Below are positions 2,142-37,014 of a stretch of DNA of 40,464 bases, one piece after another; position 1 is the stretch's first letter, and each line of letters begins with the position of its first letter. Both the position numbers and the translations under genes were made by a program. The stretch comes from a virus. The stretch lies in the IMG/VR virus record IMGVR_UViG_3300023106_000008, positions 1 through 40,464 of that record, one strand, 5' to 3'. The notes under the pieces were generated by a model. That model was not told the DNA's origin. It saw only the letters and a program-made list of their open reading frames with translations, and searched no databases.

Positions 2142-2216
2142 AAAACATAATTTAAAAATTAATCCCCGCCACTTCGCTACAAAATGACGGGGATAAAAAG
2201 TTTAGTGTAGCGATTG
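2142..2216 (-). ncRNA. structured leader L2 with 5' element complementary to hairpin loop
   Basis: On the minus strand the octamer TCGCTACA (2213-2206) is perfectly complementary to TGTAGCGA (2181-2174) in the 13-nt loop of a hairpin with a 10-bp stem (ATCCCCGTCA with TGGCGGGGAT, 2194-2185 with 2171-2162, one G-U). The hairpin ends 20 nt before the ATG at 2141 and is followed by an A/T stretch with five T. TATATTTA at 2224-2217 resembles a -7 box but is only 3 nt from the octamer, so the real 5' end is less certain here than in the other four leaders. Confidence 0.7.
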
Positions 2217-3680: not shown

Positions 3681-3713
3681 TAAAAGTAATGAAAATATTT
3701 TATATGTTTGCAA
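3681..3713 (-). promoter_or_regulatory. lysis-operon promoter
   Basis: On the minus strand TTG (3713-3711), a 22-nt spacer and TACTTTTA (3688-3681) fit the flavobacterial promoter pattern with one change in the last -7 base. Its -33 element abuts the -7 box of the plus-strand promoter (3703-3710), so the two face away from each other with overlapping footprints. Confidence 0.6.
3703..3710 (+). promoter_or_regulatory. promoter -7 element of the plus-strand cassette
   Basis: TATGTTTG is a full match to TAnnTTTG. No TTG is found 17-23 nt upstream. Transcription would start near 3717, just before the 5' element of leader L1. Confidence 0.6.
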
Positions 3714-3716
3714 TGT

Positions 3717-3817
3717 AGTTCACGACCTACGGAAAAATATAGCTAACTTTTTTAGCAATTAAAGAACCCTGCATCGTGTCGTGACTTTGCAGGGTTTCTT
3801 TTTTAAATTATTTTATT
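3717..3817 (+). ncRNA. structured leader L1 with terminator-like hairpin
   Basis: TCACGAC (3720-3726), 9 nt after the -7 box, is perfectly complementary to GTCGTGA (3778-3784) in the 14-nt loop of a hairpin. The stem is AACCCTGCA (3765-3773) with TGCAGGGTT (3788-3796), extended by AAAG/CTTT past a bulged T. It is followed by TTTTTT and ends about 18 nt before the ATG at 3818. This could be an attenuated leader or the source of a short RNA. Confidence 0.75.
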
Positions 3818-4180
3818 ATGAGTAGAGAAATTAAATTTAGAGTATTCGATCAGATTACAAAAACTATGAATCCAGTAACTTCAATGTGGGGATTTCCTGA
3901 AATAGAAACGGTATGCGTTCCTTTTGGAGACACAGTAAACACTTTGTTTCATAGTTTCGAGTTAATGCAGTTCACAGGATTAAAAGACAAGAATGGAACT
4001 GAAATTTACGAAGGAGATATATTACACAAGCCAATGCAAAGCGCAGTACCTAAATTTATAATTGAATGGAATGAATCTCAATGTTTGTTCGATGAAATAC
4101 CTAGACATGGAAATGGAAAATCAAAGGCCGATGAATTTACTGTTATAGGAAACATTCACGATAACCCAGAATTATTATGA
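3818..4180 (+). CDS. YopX family protein (120 aa)
   Basis: The ends SREIKFRVFDQ and VIGNIHDNPELL and the central LMQFTGLKDKNGTEIYEGDIL place it in the YopX family. It is a paralogue of the protein at 107-493 but differs much in the middle, so the pair is not a recent duplication. It is the first gene of the only plus-strand operon and is preceded by leader L1. Function of the family is unknown. Confidence 0.9.
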   Translation: MSREIKFRVFDQITKTMNPVTSMWGFPEIETVCVPFGDTVNTLFHSFELMQFTGLKDKNGTEIYEGDILHKPMQSAVPKFIIEWNESQCLFDEIPRHGNGKSKADEFTVIGNIHDNPELL

Positions 4181-22146: not shown

Positions 22147-22262
22147 TTCTTAACTTCTTTATTTCCTTCAAGGATTCTTTTTTTTTCTTCCAAAGACTTT
22201 TTTAAACCATCAGGCAAATCTTTTTTCTCCAACATCTTATTAATGTCATTCAGATTATCCAT
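22143..22262 (-). CDS. tiny helical protein between portal and protease (39 aa)
   Basis: ATG at 22260-22262 overlaps the portal stop by 8 bases, and its TGA overlaps the protease ATG (ATGA). The product is charged and helical (KKSLEEKKRILEGNKEVKK), without a membrane span. Tight coupling on both sides makes it a real gene. It may assist head assembly; function unknown. Confidence 0.72.
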   Translation of the reverse strand: MDNLNDINKMLEKKDLPDGLKKSLEEKKRILEGNKEVKK

Positions 22263-23511
22263 TGTATTTTTCTTTTAAATTATTAAAAGCGTTTTTCATA
22301 TCCTGTCCTGCTTCCGTCAATTTTACCAGGTTGTCAATTTCAATAGAATCAGATTCCAAAGATGTTTTCTTATCTTCCTGCAAAGCCTCTACTTTTGAAA
22401 AGTCGGGATAAAACTCTAATTCCTCCGGAAGATAAAAAACCTTGTCTAAATCTTTAGCCTTGTCTTCGCATATTGATTTTACCACATTCTGCCAAAGTCC
22501 TTTTTCTGCATCGTTCTGATTTGTAAAAGTACTGCTTCCTTTTCTAGGAATAAGTTCTTTGTTTACGCCATAAACTCCCGCTATCTTAATTGCATTTTCT
22601 TCTGTTTCTTCGAACGGCTGCAACTCTTGTATAGTTCCCAAAGTTTTAATAAACTGAAGCGGTATTGCTGAAATTCCAATAAAGTTTTTATTTCCAGTTA
22701 TCCCGTTTCTGTTATTAAGGTCGTTCAATATTTCATCCCTGCTTGCAGGATCTAACGCATCCTGTATTGATCCGTTGCTGGACGAAGGTGCTTTGCTTAA
22801 TATTCCTCCGTTGCCGTTCTTTGCATAAACGTTAAATCTTGCCTGATAAACAGCAAGAATATTATTAATGTTTTTTCCAACTCTTGACAATGGCGAAAGT
22901 CCGCATCCATTTTCATCTAATCCAAGAACTGTTCTGTGAAGAATGTATCTTGGCTCAATATCATGCTTTATTAAAAAGAACGTCTTGTAATATTTTATAA
23001 AATCCTTTTTATCTTTCATCAAGAAAGGATTAGAAATCTCTTTTAAAAGAATAGGCTTGGTTACGTTTGGCTTTAATACCCAAATGTTGCTTATGTTGTC
23101 AATAGTCGGGTTTTTAATACTGTCAGGCGTTTTTGTATATATGTAACTGTTACCGTCTGAAAGTTCGCTAAATACCGACTGGTACACGATATCGCTCATC
23201 CTTGATAAAGGATTAGGATTATCAACCAATCTCTTTAAATTTCCTTTTGGCTCGTAATCTTCCTGCGTTTTCTTGTTTCTTATTTTATATTCTATTGAAG
23301 CGGCACGATCTGCAATTGCGTCAATCGGGATGAATATTTCAGCTATGGTACAGGCTAGTTCGTAAGCTTTTGAATTTTCATACTTCGGTATCTCTCCATT
23401 TAATGAATTTACGTACTGATTGAAATACTGCATCCATTGCCCTGAATTGTCCTGTTCGGCAAATCCGGTTACTTGCGTCTTTTTTGATTTAGCAAAAGGA
23501 TTCCAATTCAT
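22255..23511 (-). CDS. HK97-family portal protein (418 aa)
   Basis: It forms the dodecameric DNA gate of the head. Features are the start NWNPFAKSKK, the block IAEIFIPIDAIADRAAS, KRLVDNPNPLS and the central RYILHRTVLGLDENGCGLSPLS loop region, followed by VYGVNKELIPRKGSSTF in the C-terminal half, all as in HK97-type portals. Length is normal. The gene is the first after leader L3 and the promoter at 23612-23646, so portal and all virion genes downstream depend on that leader. Confidence 0.9.
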   Translation of the reverse strand: MNWNPFAKSKKTQVTGFAEQDNSGQWMQYFNQYVNSLNGEIPKYENSKAYELACTIAEIFIPIDAIADRAASIEYKIRNKKTQEDYEPKGNLKRLVDNPNPLSRMSDIVYQSVFSELSDGNSYIYTKTPDSIKNPTIDNISNIWVLKPNVTKPILLKEISNPFLMKDKKDFIKYYKTFFLIKHDIEPRYILHRTVLGLDENGCGLSPLSRVGKNINNILAVYQARFNVYAKNGNGGILSKAPSSSNGSIQDALDPASRDEILNDLNNRNGITGNKNFIGISAIPLQFIKTLGTIQELQPFEETEENAIKIAGVYGVNKELIPRKGSSTFTNQNDAEKGLWQNVVKSICEDKAKDLDKVFYLPEELEFYPDFSKVEALQEDKKTSLESDSIEIDNLVKLTEAGQDMKNAFNNLKEKYNG

Positions 23512-23605
23512 TTAGATTAAACGTAAAAAATCCCTGCCTATGTTTCCATAAGTAGGGATTAAGTTATAATTTCTGTTAAAGGTTCTACGCATCTTCACAT
23601 AGGAT
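23512..23605 (-). ncRNA. structured leader L3 before the portal gene
   Basis: On the minus strand CCTATGT (23603-23597), 8 nt after the -7 box, is perfectly complementary to ACATAGG (23543-23537) inside a terminator-like hairpin. The hairpin has the stem AATCCCT/AGGGATT (23560-23554, 23535-23529), an inner stem with a GAAA tetraloop, and a run of six T. It ends 17 nt before the portal ATG. Pairing of the 5' element with the inner arm would open the upper half of the hairpin. Confidence 0.72.
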
Positions 23606-23611
23606 ATACTG

Positions 23612-29854: not shown

Positions 29855-30027
29855 AAGTTAATTATTTTTAATCTAGTTATTAAATATGCTTTATTTGAAT
29901 CAACTATATTTTCTCTTTCATACTTTCGCAATGCTTCTAATTTTTCAGAAACTCCAATTTGAAGAAGCAGAATAGGTTTGCCATTTATATTTTTTGCCCA
30001 TAATTCTAATAAATATGTATAACTCAT
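29851..30027 (-). CDS. small hypothetical protein (58 aa)
   Basis: ATG at 30025-30027 opens 58 codons whose TGA overlaps the next ATG (ATGA). A first helix (YTYLLELWAKNINGKPILLL) is followed by a charged helix (SEKLEALRKYEREN). No family recognised. Coupling to the gene downstream supports it. Confidence 0.65.
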   Translation of the reverse strand: MSYTYLLELWAKNINGKPILLLQIGVSEKLEALRKYERENIVDSNKAYLITRLKIINL

Positions 30028-30029
30028 AA

Positions 30030-30245
30030 CTACTCTTTTTTAGATTTTAAACACTCCTTTTCAACATTTTCTAAAGCTTGGTTCTGAATCCTTTTAATCA
30101 ATTCTGATTCAGTTTCGCCTGGTTTCAAATGATACTTCTCTACAATTGGTTTTATTTCTTCCATTGTTTGCAATTCAAAATCAGAATTAACATTAACATT
30201 AATCCTTTTCATTTTACCATCCGGAAATAATTTTCTTCTACCCAT
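30030..30245 (-). CDS. small basic protein, possible DNA-binding (71 aa)
   Basis: Starts GRRKLFPDGKMKRINVNVNSDFE, where a basic end and the strand KRINVNVN followed by a helix (about 22-35) have the order of a ribbon-helix-helix domain. The C-terminal half is a helix with alternating charges. A hairpin (30260-30279) lies just upstream of its start. DNA binding is only suggested. Confidence 0.6.
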   Translation of the reverse strand: MGRRKLFPDGKMKRINVNVNSDFELQTMEEIKPIVEKYHLKPGETESELIKRIQNQALENVEKECLKSKKE

Positions 30246-30473: not shown

Positions 30474-30548
30474 AATTTTTGGTTTGATGTATTGCCTACT
30501 CTATTCAGTTTTCGGCTTACCTGTTTTATTATTATGTTGCTGATTTAA

Positions 30549-30938
30549 TTAATACACTTTTTCTTTTCTTAAAACAATTTCTCTTTCTGTTTTATACCAA
30601 TTACAATTAAATCCTTGTTTTTCAAGAAATTCAATTATATAGTCCATTGATACAAATCCTCTTTTAAATATAAATTTGTGGTCAAAAGCAAAAACCACTC
30701 CTTGTCCGTCAATATTAGCATTATCTTGAAACCCTTTTGCAACAAAATAATCCGTGGTAAGATCTATTATTTCAGATATATTTACATCTTTTTTCTGACC
30801 TGAATAATAAATAGAAACTTCATCATAAGTACCATGAATGTTTATGAAAGGGATAAATTGAACTTCATCTACATTCATTGGGACTTCATCTAAATAATGA
30901 TCTAAAACAGATTGGTATAATTTCATATATTTACTCAT
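30549..30938 (-). CDS. hypothetical protein (129 aa)
   Basis: A soluble protein with an N-terminal helix (YMKLYQSVLDHYLDEVP), strands in the middle (VSIYYSGQKKDVNISE) and a C-terminal alpha/beta part ending VLRKEKVY. It has two clear halves but no domain I can name. The start is 2 bases after the gene upstream. Confidence 0.7.
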   Translation of the reverse strand: MSKYMKLYQSVLDHYLDEVPMNVDEVQFIPFINIHGTYDEVSIYYSGQKKDVNISEIIDLTTDYFVAKGFQDNANIDGQGVVFAFDHKFIFKRGFVSMDYIIEFLEKQGFNCNWYKTEREIVLRKEKVY

Positions 30939-30940
30939 AA

Positions 30941-31225
30941 CTAAACTTCTTTAATTGTTGTTACATTTTTATTTTCTAACTTTTCAATTTGGTTTCGCAA
31001 TGGATTATTAATTATTTGTAAATATTTAGCCGAAAAATAACCGCTGAAACCTTCAAGGAAAACAACTTCCGATTTGTCCCGTGCTAAAAAGCTATCAGTT
31101 TCACAAGTCCAAATTTTACCTTTATAAATTGGCAATGTAGATTCATGACAGGTGTGCATCACAACCTTATCGTTTCTTTTAAATAATTTAGTTTTATTTT
31201 TTTGTATTTCTTCGTCTGATGTCAT
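30941..31225 (-). CDS. hypothetical protein with LENKNVT C-terminus (94 aa)
   Basis: The core (about 20-70) has the layout of a small barrel: DKVVMHTCHESTLPIYKGKIW, then SEVVFLEGFSGYFSAKYLQI. It ends in QIEKLENKNVTTIKEV, nearly identical to the end of the protein at 29600-29854. Cys28 and Cys40 are the only cysteines. Function unknown. Confidence 0.7.
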   Translation of the reverse strand: MTSDEEIQKNKTKLFKRNDKVVMHTCHESTLPIYKGKIWTCETDSFLARDKSEVVFLEGFSGYFSAKYLQIINNPLRNQIEKLENKNVTTIKEV

Positions 31226-31294
31226 AACTACTCTTTTTTAGATTGTTAATTGATTTAAATTAGTTTCCCGCCCTCAATTCTATTGTATTAAACA

Positions 31295-31534
31295 TTAATT
31301 TACTGGAATGGAAAATGTTTTTATTTTTCTACTGTATTCAGTTTTCGAATTCCCTGTTTTTGTTTCAAATCTTGGTTTAAGCAATCCTCCAACATAATAA
31401 GATTTAAAAAAATCAGATAACGGGGATTTTGTAATATTAAAGCAATTAATAGCGTCTATTCTGTTTTTAAATTTTCCGCTTGAAATGTGCATCCATCCCG
31501 AATGCACTTTCTTATATAATTGAAATCTATCCAT
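31295..31534 (-). CDS. hypothetical protein with KTGNSKTEYSRK end (79 aa)
   Basis: A small soluble protein with a beta-rich first half (DRFQLYKKVHSGWMHISSG) and a basic C-terminus with KTGNSKTEYSRKIK. A related coding relic (frame TGKPKTE then stop) lies at 30501-30523, so the C-terminal motif occurs twice nearby. The gene starts right at the stop of the one upstream (one-base overlap). Confidence 0.66.
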   Translation of the reverse strand: MDRFQLYKKVHSGWMHISSGKFKNRIDAINCFNITKSPLSDFFKSYYVGGLLKPRFETKTGNSKTEYSRKIKTFSIPVN

Positions 31535-32236: not shown

Positions 32237-33076
32237 TTATGAAAATAAAGTTGCATTGCTTTTTTCAATAAGTGTTTTTGCAAATCCAAATTCCTCAATA
32301 TCGCTTAATTTTTGAAATTCTTCATCAATCCAATGTGAAGCCAGTTTATGAAAAGGTTTTTTAATTTCAAAACCAAAACATTTTCTTTTTAATTCTTGGC
32401 CGGCAATTAAAGTGCTTCCACTTCCTGCACACGGATCAATAACTACATCTCCTTCATCTGTAAAAATAGATATTAATGTTTTCAATAATTCTACTGGTTT
32501 TTGAGTTGGGTGTATTTTTTCACTTATATTATCCCTTGGCCAATCAATACAGTTAAATATCATTTTGCCTTTATTTCTAAATTTAGGCAGTTTATCACGA
32601 TAAAGTATTAATCCATATTCGCAATTACCTACTACTTTCATATTTGCCTTTAGGACTTGTGCAGAAAAATTCTTTCTAAAAACAAGATTTATATAATTAT
32701 TTAATCCGTATTTTTTAGCTAATTCTATCAAATACATTTGTTGATCAAAAGCACAAAATATAATCATACATGGCGCATCACTTTTTTGTCTTGCCTCTCC
32801 ATCAACTTTTATTTTTTTTGTTTCAGGTCTTAACATTGTACTGCAAAAGTGCATAAATTCTGCTGGTCTAAAATCTTCATCTGTATCAAAAAAACTTTTT
32901 CCTGCCAAATCACTTTCTCCATTTGAATTGTCCCCGTCTTTATACCATGCAGGATTTGAAGCATAGGCGTTATTTCCAAGATTATAAGGAATATCAGCTA
33001 TTATAAGCTGTGCTTTTGGAATAGCATACGTTTTAAAGTTCTGAAAGTGATTGTTAAATATTTGTGCTTTTTTCAT
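32237..33076 (-). CDS. DNA methyltransferase, beta class N6-adenine/N4-cytosine type (279 aa)
   Basis: Catalytic motif IV is DIPY (28-31) and the AdoMet motif is DPCAGSGST (214-222), preceded by HPTQKPVELL (189-198). Motif IV before motif I is the order of the beta class (PF01555 type). The first Asp-Ile-Pro-Tyr replaces the usual DPPY/SPPY, which is a known variant. The frame could start 11 codons upstream, but the ATG at 33074-33076 lies right after leader L5 and gives a normal N-terminus. No cognate nuclease is nearby; it may protect phage DNA from host restriction. Target site unknown. Confidence 0.9.
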   Translation of the reverse strand: MKKAQIFNNHFQNFKTYAIPKAQLIIADIPYNLGNNAYASNPAWYKDGDNSNGESDLAGKSFFDTDEDFRPAEFMHFCSTMLRPETKKIKVDGEARQKSDAPCMIIFCAFDQQMYLIELAKKYGLNNYINLVFRKNFSAQVLKANMKVVGNCEYGLILYRDKLPKFRNKGKMIFNCIDWPRDNISEKIHPTQKPVELLKTLISIFTDEGDVVIDPCAGSGSTLIAGQELKRKCFGFEIKKPFHKLASHWIDEEFQKLSDIEEFGFAKTLIEKSNATLFS

Positions 33077-33156
33077 AATACAAAAATTCCCTCCCCTGCT
33101 TACCGCCAAGTAAAAGCAAAGAAAGGAATTAAGTTAATTTTTAAATCTTGGCGGAT
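33077..33156 (-). ncRNA. structured leader L5 before the methyltransferase gene
   Basis: On the minus strand CCGCCAAG (33154-33147) is perfectly complementary to CTTGGCGG (33110-33103) in the 12-nt loop of a 17-bp hairpin (33130-33114 with 33101-33085, with G-U pairs), the strongest stem of the five leaders. A T-stretch (TTTTTG) follows and the ATG is 8 nt from the stem. The hairpin would be either a terminator or a structure that covers the start region. Confidence 0.78.
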
Positions 33157-33162
33157 TTTGTG

Positions 33163-33170
33163 TAAATGTA
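33163..33170 (-). promoter_or_regulatory. -7-like element before leader L5
   Basis: TACATTTA on the minus strand differs from TAnnTTTG in the last base and lies 8 nt before the 5' octamer of leader L5, the same distance as in L1, L3 and L4. No TTG was found at -33. Weak on its own; supported by the spacing. Confidence 0.45.
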
Positions 33171-33177
33171 ATAAATT

Positions 33178-35605: not shown

Positions 35606-36347
35606 TTTCTTGTGATTTTAATAATAATTGCTGAAATTTTTCTCTCAATTTGCTGGTTGATAAAATATTTGATTTCCAAAATTCCCCCTCAACACTTCCT
35701 AAATATTTGTAAACCAAAGTCAATTGTTCTTTTGTAACTCCATCACTAGACATCATTAGTCGAATTGGTGTAACGTAATTTTTGTAAGTGGCTTTTTCTT
35801 GATTCGCCGCTGGTGCGTTTTTTTCTTTTAGATTTTTAATGAAAAGCTTTTGATAGGCTAAAGCAATTTCAAAATATTGAATCTCATTAATTTCTAAGTC
35901 TGAAATTTTAATTTCAGATAAAAGACTTTTTTTTGTTTCTTTTTTTAAAAGAATATCATTAACACTTACATTATCATTTACACTAACACTTACATTAACA
36001 CTATCAGTTGGATTTGTTGGCACTTGTTCAACACTTTCAACACTTGTTGAATTTGTTGCGTTTGTTGCGTTTTGTTCTTGTGATTTTAAAGCTCTAAGTT
36101 CCGCAGATTTTTTACCAGCATCACTTCTTTTTATCTTAACTTCCTCAAACTTAACTAAATCCCTTTTTAAAGATAATTCAATAGGTTTCCAAGCTGTAAG
36201 TATTAGCCTATCAGTTAAAATTGGTTTAAGGTCGTTAACATACTCTAATAAATGATTAAAAAGTATTCCTTTTTCTTCATTTGTTAGATGTTCAATGCTT
36301 TGCAACATATCGGAGTAAAGCACAAATGATTTTTTACCTTCTGCCAT
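35499..36347 (-). CDS. DUF6291-like replication protein (282 aa)
   Basis: The N-terminal 90 residues fit DUF6291: KSFVLYSDMLQSIEHLTNEE, then LFNHLLEYVNDLKPI and AWKPIELSLKRDLVKFEE. A Ser/Asn/Val-rich linker (about 95-135, SVNVSVSVNDNVSVN) contains a short repeat. The C-terminal domain (about 145-250) is helical, as in phage replication initiators or helicase loaders. The last 107 bases overlap the next gene in another frame. Function by analogy. Confidence 0.78.
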   Translation of the reverse strand: MAEGKKSFVLYSDMLQSIEHLTNEEKGILFNHLLEYVNDLKPILTDRLILTAWKPIELSLKRDLVKFEEVKIKRSDAGKKSAELRALKSQEQNATNATNSTSVESVEQVPTNPTDSVNVSVSVNDNVSVNDILLKKETKKSLLSEIKISDLEINEIQYFEIALAYQKLFIKNLKEKNAPAANQEKATYKNYVTPIRLMMSSDGVTKEQLTLVYKYLGSVEGEFWKSNILSTSKLREKFQQLLLKSQENGKSGNYKSGNTTPTTDELAEQSYSAVAKLLGRTQ

Positions 36348-36349
36348 AA

Positions 36350-36682
36350 TTATTGATTTAATTCATCATAGGCATCAATCATATCGTAAATATTAGAATA
36401 CACAATATCGTAAGATGGCTCAAATCCATCTGGAATCCATCTTTCTCCGTTCTCTAATATTTGCAATGTCAAGAATCCGGCGCATTCTTTTGAATTTTCT
36501 CCAGCATACATTTCTCCTGATTCTGATTCTTCGTCTAATTCTGTAGTTTTATGACAAGGAAAAGTATTATATGGATTTTGAGCGTGGTAAGCTAATTCTT
36601 CGCCTCTTTCAGGCGTCAAATAAGGCTTTACATCATTCCTGTAAGGACAATGTTTACAAGGTTTTTTACAAAAGTAAATCAT
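36350..36682 (-). CDS. DUF6283-like cysteine protein (110 aa)
   Basis: The N-terminal CKKPCKHCPYRNDVKPYL (Cys5, 9, 12) and the later FPCHKT (Cys43, His44) and KECAGFL (Cys66) fit the DUF6283 family of small phage proteins, and could bind zinc or an Fe-S cluster. The C-terminal part is acidic. First gene after leader L4. Role unknown. Confidence 0.75.
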   Translation of the reverse strand: MIYFCKKPCKHCPYRNDVKPYLTPERGEELAYHAQNPYNTFPCHKTTELDEESESGEMYAGENSKECAGFLTLQILENGERWIPDGFEPSYDIVYSNIYDMIDAYDELNQ

Positions 36683-36780
36683 AATATTTAAAAAAGAGAA
36701 AAGCCTCTAGGAGCTACTACACATCCTAAAGGCTTTCTCGGTTAGTCGTTAGACTAAATATCTTAAGCAAGTAGTAGATT
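36683..36780 (-). ncRNA. structured leader L4 with terminator-like hairpin
   Basis: On the minus strand CTACTAC (36777-36771), 9 nt after the -7 box, is perfectly complementary to GTAGTAG (36720-36714) in the 11-nt loop of a hairpin. The stem is 36739-36724 with 36712-36696 (16 bp with a bulge and one mismatch) and is followed by TTTTTT. A second small hairpin, TTAGTC/GACTAA class, lies between (36742-36757). The ATG is 13 nt after the stem. Confidence 0.78.
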
Positions 36781-36786
36781 GCTGAA

Positions 36787-36816
36787 CAAAAATACGATAA
36801 TATTTGAAATACACAA
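36787..36816 (-). promoter_or_regulatory. promoter of leader L4
   Basis: On the minus strand TTG (36816-36814), a 19-nt spacer and TATTTTTG (36794-36787) fully match the flavobacterial consensus. It starts right after the stop codon of the gene at 36817-37014. Confidence 0.78.
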
Positions 36817-37014
36817 TCAAATCATGTAATTTAATTTGCTTTCGACAATTTCAAATTTATATTTTTTGAAAACAATTGAATCTATTATACAGTGAACTTT
36901 ATGGCGCGACACTCCTGTTTTTTTTTGTATTTCAATTACGGTGTTTTCTTTTCCTGATAAATAGCAATCTGTTACCAAAACTATTTCTTCGTGGGTTAAA
37001 GTTGATACTGCCAT
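36817..37014 (-). CDS. small helix-turn-helix protein (65 aa)
   Basis: Residues about 25-48 (TVIEIQKKTGVSRHKVHCIID) form a helix-turn-helix with the typical Gly-Val-Ser turn. The N-terminal THEEIVLVTDCYLSG is a helix. It is a single-domain DNA-binding protein, probably regulatory. It ends at the promoter of leader L4 and starts on the stop of the next gene upstream. Confidence 0.76.
   Translation of the reverse strand: MAVSTLTHEEIVLVTDCYLSGKENTVIEIQKKTGVSRHKVHCIIDSIVFKKYKFEIVESKLNYMI

Follow-up and report, generated by a model that had tools for sequence, protein, structure and literature searches.

A putative attenuator leader of flavobacterial phages in which the 5' hairpin is predicted to pair with the terminator loop

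Why should a promoter be followed by a terminator-like hairpin that ends only a few bases before the start codon of the gene behind it? The question is raised by a minus-strand element of the window, by which we mean the whole 40,464-base virus record that was analysed (33% G+C), whose nearest annotated relatives, judged by the terminase, are phages of Olleya, Nonlabens, Leeuwenhoekiella, Cellulophaga and Tenacibaculum. The element is flanked by a 65-aa gene (36817-37014) on one side and a 110-aa DUF6283-like gene on the other. As is set out below, we think it somewhat more probable than all other readings taken together that the element is a cis-acting transcription-attenuator leader, the 5' hairpin of which kisses the loop of its own terminator.

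Layout of the leader

A preliminary description of this DNA had named a promoter TTG-N19-TATTTTTG, the heptamers CTACTAC and GTAGTAG, a TTAGTC/GACTAA stem, a 16-bp hairpin, six U and a gap of 13 nt before the gene. Direct reading placed the promoter at 36816-36787 and the heptamers at 36777-36771 and 36720-36714 on the minus strand, folding returned the small stem and the 16-bp hairpin as described, and U6 at 36695-36690 with an ATG at 36682 accounts for the gap (U6 plus 7 bases). Two properties went beyond that description. CTACTAC is closed by a GCAA/UUGC stem into a 5' hairpin that starts where transcription is expected to begin, and it is the exact reverse complement of GTAGTAG, with which it covaries between relatives. 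The parts are as follows.

36787-36816, minus strand: promoter TTG-N19-TATTTTTG, by motif match; in nearly all relatives a TAnnTTTG box precedes the 5' hairpin by 4-8 nt
36767-36782, minus strand: 5' hairpin GCAA(UCUACUAC)UUGC, by folding; stem invariant in 24 aligned members
36771-36777, minus strand: 5' loop heptamer CUACUAC, partner of 36714-36720, by covariation in 24 sequences
36761-36766, minus strand: linker UUAAGA, by alignment; conserved in part of class 1
36742-36757, minus strand: second hairpin UUAGUC-UAAC-GACUAA, by folding; two-sided changes in 4 of 6 pairs
36696-36739, minus strand: terminator-like hairpin of 16 bp with loop UGUGUAGUAGC, by folding; two-sided changes in 11 of 16 pairs
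36714-36720, minus strand: terminator-loop heptamer GUAGUAG, by sequence and pair counts
36690-36695, minus strand: U tract (U6) 3' of the terminator-like hairpin, by sequence
36350-36682, minus strand: downstream gene, 110 aa, resembling DUF6283 (PF19800) with 26.4 bits, just under the 27-bit cut-off

The promoter, which we take to be of the Bacteroidetes primary-sigma type, is one of eight matches to TTG-N17-21-TAnnTTTG on the two strands of the window, and the 5' hairpin starts 4 bases after it, approximately where transcription is expected to start (about 36782). The 16-bp stem contains one bulged U; a GC-containing stem followed by a U tract is the structure of an intrinsic terminator, and a simple terminator scan was without this site because its loop limit is 8 nt. 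Folding of the leader gave a minimum free energy of -31.8 kcal/mol (z = -4.4), and none of 200 shuffles was as good. From promoter to U tract, the predicted RNA would be about 92 nt long. The leader thus combines a promoter box, a complement of at least 7 bp between the 5' loop and the terminator loop, and an ATG soon after, which is how we define the set of kissing terminators. It was also considered as part of the DUF6283 gene family, and this was rejected; the leader is not tied to the family, since DUF6283 relatives in the viruses L002-L004 lack it.

Covariation of the two loops

A pattern with both heptamers retrieved about 18 true relatives from viral contigs, with promoter, hairpins and start codon as marks. 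The terminator-loop pattern alone returned the same structured set from viral contigs, always with the matching 5' loop, and no other sequence with that hairpin. Bias towards the heptamer letters was removed in two loop-blind scans, in which the 5' loop was left free (GCAA-N8-UUGC) and which gave at least 126 distinct matches. Among the matches listed, an exact 7-nt complement of the terminator loop was present in all 22 class-1 matches with promoter box and terminator hairpin as well as in viral contig L379, whose terminator was overlooked by the script, and a complement of at least 6 nt was present in 3 of the about 80-103 with neither promoter box nor terminator. The 5' loop of class 1 occurs as CUACUAC, CCAUCAC, CCACUAC and CUCUCAC.

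Across 24 aligned members, every cell of the seven loop-loop positions was paired (100%). Both partners had changed in 24 cells and one partner alone in none, and the covariation score was reached by none of 500 shuffles; when the partner was slid as a control, 11-53% of cells were paired. The second hairpin and the terminator stem likewise covary, and the order of promoter, 5' hairpin, terminator and ATG is conserved. The loop-loop duplexes are predicted at -7 to -13 kcal/mol. Pairing of the 5' loop with the terminator loop is strongly supported. Single 7-mer matches do arise by chance, at about 0.001 per leader (0.0013 between shuffled loops of the same letters), but the systematic two-sided covariation in several classes refutes the view that the match is accidental, or that an ordinary terminator stands beside an unrelated promoter, and we give that view practically no credence.

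Recoded leaders in the window and in other phages

At least three further sites in the window show this layout in different letters, which the preliminary description had not noted.

3703-3803, plus strand: second leader, class 1, with promoter, GUAG(UUCACGAC)CUAC, a hairpin and a terminator with GUCGUGA in its loop (33.7 bits, E 1.7e-4)
33092-33171, minus strand: third leader, CCGCCAAG / CUUGGCGG, upstream of an N6/N4 DNA methyltransferase gene (32237-33109)
2160-2216, minus strand: fourth leader, CGCUACA / UGUAGCG, upstream of a 104-aa ORF (1827-2141)
23530-23610, minus strand: possible fifth leader, CCUAUGU / ACAUAGG, upstream of the portal gene 22255-23511, read by eye

The second leader precedes a YopX gene (3818-4180). 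The true start of the methyltransferase gene is probably the ATG directly after the hairpin of the third, and the code (pair of loop sequences) of the fourth is also present in viral contigs L275 and L403. The candidate fifth leader (about 23603-23537) is weaker, as alternative folds exist and the site was not found by the automatic scans.

A second class was found in the related phages of viral contigs L006 and L007, where GUUGG(CUCAUCAC...)CCAAC is combined with the terminator loop GUGAUGAG. Here the leader begins 2 nt after the promoter box, and the upstream gene and promoter are shared, the promoter base for base. When 36787-36816 of the window is set against about 3200-3230 of L006, identity through the promoter ends 2 nt past the -7 box, approximately at the expected transcription start, and leader and operon are swapped; leaders may be recombination borders of phage modules. 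In a loop-blind search for class 2, 8-9 pairs were kept at all 14 loci (with one G-U in 3 of the 14) in at least five versions of the code. A small gene family (MAKFELKF...) lies behind a class-1 leader in L275 (5611-5973) and behind a class-2 leader in L006 (3232-3620), with an unusually long hairpin-to-gene gap of about 50-70 nt.

Phage contigs were further subjected to a general, fold-based scan for a promoter box, a 7-mer complement inside a hairpin loop and a T tract, with the complement without reversal as control; it replaced an earlier promoter-based scan, which had missed the mumin and Harreka leaders described below. It gave 83 real and 17 control matches, a ratio that is no unbiased estimate because the contigs were partly chosen for the motif. 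In eleven cultured phages not chosen for the motif, the 7-mer scan gave 5 matches against 1-3 in controls, a small excess. The general scan also yielded further classes, such as GUAG(AGUCGUCG)CUAC / CGACGAC upstream of NUMOD4 endonucleases, and it picked up the second, third and fourth leaders of the window (at 3711 on the plus strand, and at 33171 and 2216 on the minus strand). At least four classes that are unrelated in sequence have the layout in common.

Among cultured phages, Flavobacterium phage mumin6-1 has two leaders, the first upstream of an endonuclease gene and the second heading the replication operon. The latter locus has homologues in 40-odd records of phages that infect strains LMO6 and LMO9, with three codes: GUGGAACG/CGUUCCAC in mumin, GUGAGACG/CGUCUCAC in filifjonk and GUGAGAAG/CUUCUCAC in morran. 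Leaders upstream of replication genes were also seen in the podovirus elemo (GUGGAGG/CCUCCAC) and in Olleya phage Harreka_1 (GUGGUGG/CCACCAC), and phage 11b has CGGGCAGG/CCUGCCCG. The 5' loop is pyrimidine-rich in class 1 and purine-rich in the cultured phages; it is thus the pairing that is kept, not the letters. As the leaders are present in cultured virulent phages whose hosts are grown in the laboratory, they are directly testable. No convincing leader was found in the cultured phages P12024L, Arctus_1, phi12:1, 6H and B124-14, nor in the scanned parts of phi13:1, phi12:3, phi3ST:2 and Larrie. Two weak sub-threshold Rfam matches near cultured-phage leaders were judged unrelated.

In the bacterial genomes sampled the leader was not recovered. 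The class-1 covariance model gave 7 weak matches in 299 genomes of one flavobacterial family, all without loop complementarity, and pattern scans of 397 genomes of the same family gave 0 matches each for the class-1 frame and the class-3 code. In bacterial genomes the terminator-loop pattern matched in unstructured places only, and a DNA similarity search with the leader against phage records returned chance pieces only.

The genes behind class-1 and class-2 leaders encode ResIII helicases, NUMOD4/HNH and GIY-YIG endonucleases, C5 and N4/N6 methyltransferases, AAA_25 ATPases, HTH_36 and BT4734-like replication proteins, DUF6291, YopX and small proteins without assignment. In 24 of the 25 class-1 leaders with a readable gene, the ATG follows the hairpin after 13-24 nt. 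Given that a promoter needs more than 30 bp and the gap is shorter, the gene can be expressed only by transcription past the hairpin, and the near-constant distance speaks for action of the leader in cis on that gene.

Possible modes of action

In the preliminary description, the arrangement was held to make sense only if termination is conditional or if the product is a short RNA. The conserved order, the gap of 13-24 nt and the fact that no promoter fits into this gap agree with that proposal; termination in the cell and its regulation, together with the direction of the pairing effect and the trigger, are parts that we infer. What is established from the sequences comprises the promoter motif, the 5' hairpin, the terminator-like hairpin, the loop-loop complementarity and the fixed site before the ATG. 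In the attenuator that we favour, transcription from a strong promoter would begin at the 5' hairpin, and attenuation in the leader would set how much of it enters the gene behind. Once the terminator loop emerges, seven of its bases would kiss the loop of the 5' hairpin, giving a compact RNA of about 92 nt with its 3' end at the U tract, and the gene 13 nt beyond the hairpin would be made only by read-through, regulated or leaky. The kissed fold might speed closure of the terminator, so that the default would be OFF, and its disturbance would lead to read-through at the right stage of infection. Such a disturbance might come from a factor of phage or host origin that binds RNA or acts in antitermination, or from the state of the polymerase during elongation.

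With one base to spare in the 8-nt loop and three on the 5' side of the 11-nt loop opposite, the geometry allows both stems to stay closed; kissing is therefore expected to make the terminated form more stable instead of opening the terminator. As kissing is possible without opening of the terminator stem, the pairing need not affect termination and could instead serve RNA stability or protein binding. Several class-1 U tracts are interrupted (e.g. UUUUGUCAUUUUU), so that termination may be weak.

Interrupted U tracts, and a structure that starts at the expected 5' end, would also suit an element that stabilises the mRNA or acts in translation: the kissing hairpins would then guard or shape its 5' end, and the U tract would not work as a terminator. 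However, the last stem, which is long, perfect and terminator-like, has a U-rich tract behind it in essentially all members, and this makes such an element improbable. We regard it as equally improbable that the RNA of about 92 nt is an end product which acts on other targets, the downstream gene being incidental: promoter and terminator do set both of its ends and the fold is compact and conserved, but a free RNA has no need of a near-constant short distance to the start codon of many unrelated genes. In class 1, the conserved linker UUAAGA, together with a terminator, recalls the expression platforms of riboswitches. Sensing of a ligand with the kissing as tertiary contact nevertheless appears very improbable, since the sequence-unrelated classes have only the pairing layout in common, the controlled genes (nucleases, methyltransferases, helicases, replication proteins) form no pathway, and the Rfam 15 covariance models gave no match to the window leader at the gathering threshold or at E<=1, even with lax filters.

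An action in trans, in which the terminated RNA with its two loops would bind through a private code to copies, still being transcribed, of the leader from which it came, is doubtful, though several observations would suit it. The same code was never seen twice in a genome examined, including L008 and L042 with two class-1 leaders each, sibling phages of the same hosts differ in code at one locus, and replication genes stand behind many leaders. The models for such a system are plasmid-control RNAs and the P4/P1 immunity RNAs, and its effect would be a copy-number-like feedback or the exclusion of phages with the same code. On the other side, the code did not diverge significantly more than the other parts of the leader (Fisher p 0.06, 0.18 and 0.89), so that diversifying selection on the code was not supported. 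In addition, with two loops in one RNA, intramolecular pairing should beat pairing in trans, and a scan for TTG-N-TAnnTTTG revealed no separate antisense promoter over the window leader. The LMO6/LMO9 phages are virulent (PMC7077304), and lysogen immunity is therefore inapplicable to them. Still more doubtful is the extension of this idea to a coded RNA-control system across flavobacterial phages, in which each operon would begin with an RNA that terminates itself and bears an individual loop-loop address, and the freed RNAs would act in trans on any nascent leader with a matching address; if true, it would mean feedback for each gene and competition or exclusion between phages with a common address.

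The attenuator reading was also compared with known systems. Attenuators and riboswitch platforms such as pfl/ZTP and crcB likewise have a leader RNA, an intrinsic terminator near the gene and a tertiary contact near the terminator, whereas here the apical loop of the terminator pairs through 7-9 freely varying bp with a hairpin at the extreme 5' end, there is no evident ligand pocket, and the leaders occur, as far as searched, in phages only. Antisense attenuation in pT181/pIP501 and the RNAI/RNAII pair of ColE1 use kissing loops, in the setting of a terminator before a replication gene and of code variants among relatives, and resemble the leaders in these respects; in contrast to them, one transcript holds both partner loops here, no opposite-strand antisense RNA was found, and no plus-strand TTG-N-TAnnTTTG promoter is present near 36690-36816. 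Like the P4 CI and P1 C4 RNAs, the element is a short phage leader RNA with complementary segments that would control termination, but the phages here are virulent, the complementary parts are hairpin loops, one of them in the terminator, and the c4 antisense RNA model (RF01695) did not match the window leader. Lambda pR'-6S RNA-tR' and the HK022 put RNAs also join a strong promoter, a short RNA and a terminator before genes that depend on read-through; structure and kissing differ, and no Q-type gene or put-like sequence was identified here. Type III toxin-antitoxin systems (ToxIN) have the same order of promoter, structured RNA, terminator and gene, but the leader RNA is without tandem repeats, with one copy per gene, many unrelated genes stand behind it, and no ToxN-type endoribonuclease is among the downstream Pfams (DUF6283, ResIII helicase, NUMOD4/HNH, GIY-YIG, methyltransferases, HTH_36, AAA_25, DUF6291).

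Attenuators, kissing loops and phage leaders, each taken alone, are known kinds. We did not find the combination described, i.e. a freely recoded pairing of 5' hairpin and terminator loop in several unrelated RNA classes, and full-text searches, largely of literature outside the subscription journals, returned no description of such leaders. These leaders of Flavobacterium-type phages, before replication and DNA-modifying genes, look like an undescribed kind of gene switch. Little is known of gene timing in Bacteroidetes phages, in which the leaders are a recurrent RNA layout backed by covariation; to pair the apical loop of a terminator with the 5' end of its own RNA would be an unusual attenuator design, and interchangeable codes would be useful parts for orthogonal transcription control.

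Elsewhere in the window, the Rfam DUF805b RNA (RF02914, 39.4 bits), a Bacteroidetes motif, was matched at 30493-30525 on the minus strand, upstream of a small ORF, which is notable in a phage, and a second, diverged copy lies about 0.8 kb from it at 31329-31360. A block TAAAAAAGAGTAGTTATGA is found at the starts of three adjacent small genes (30022-30042, 30933-30953 and 31220-31240), which gives the impression of a copied translation start region. In the DUF6291 gene, a 12-nt unit is present in three imperfect copies at 35957-36000.
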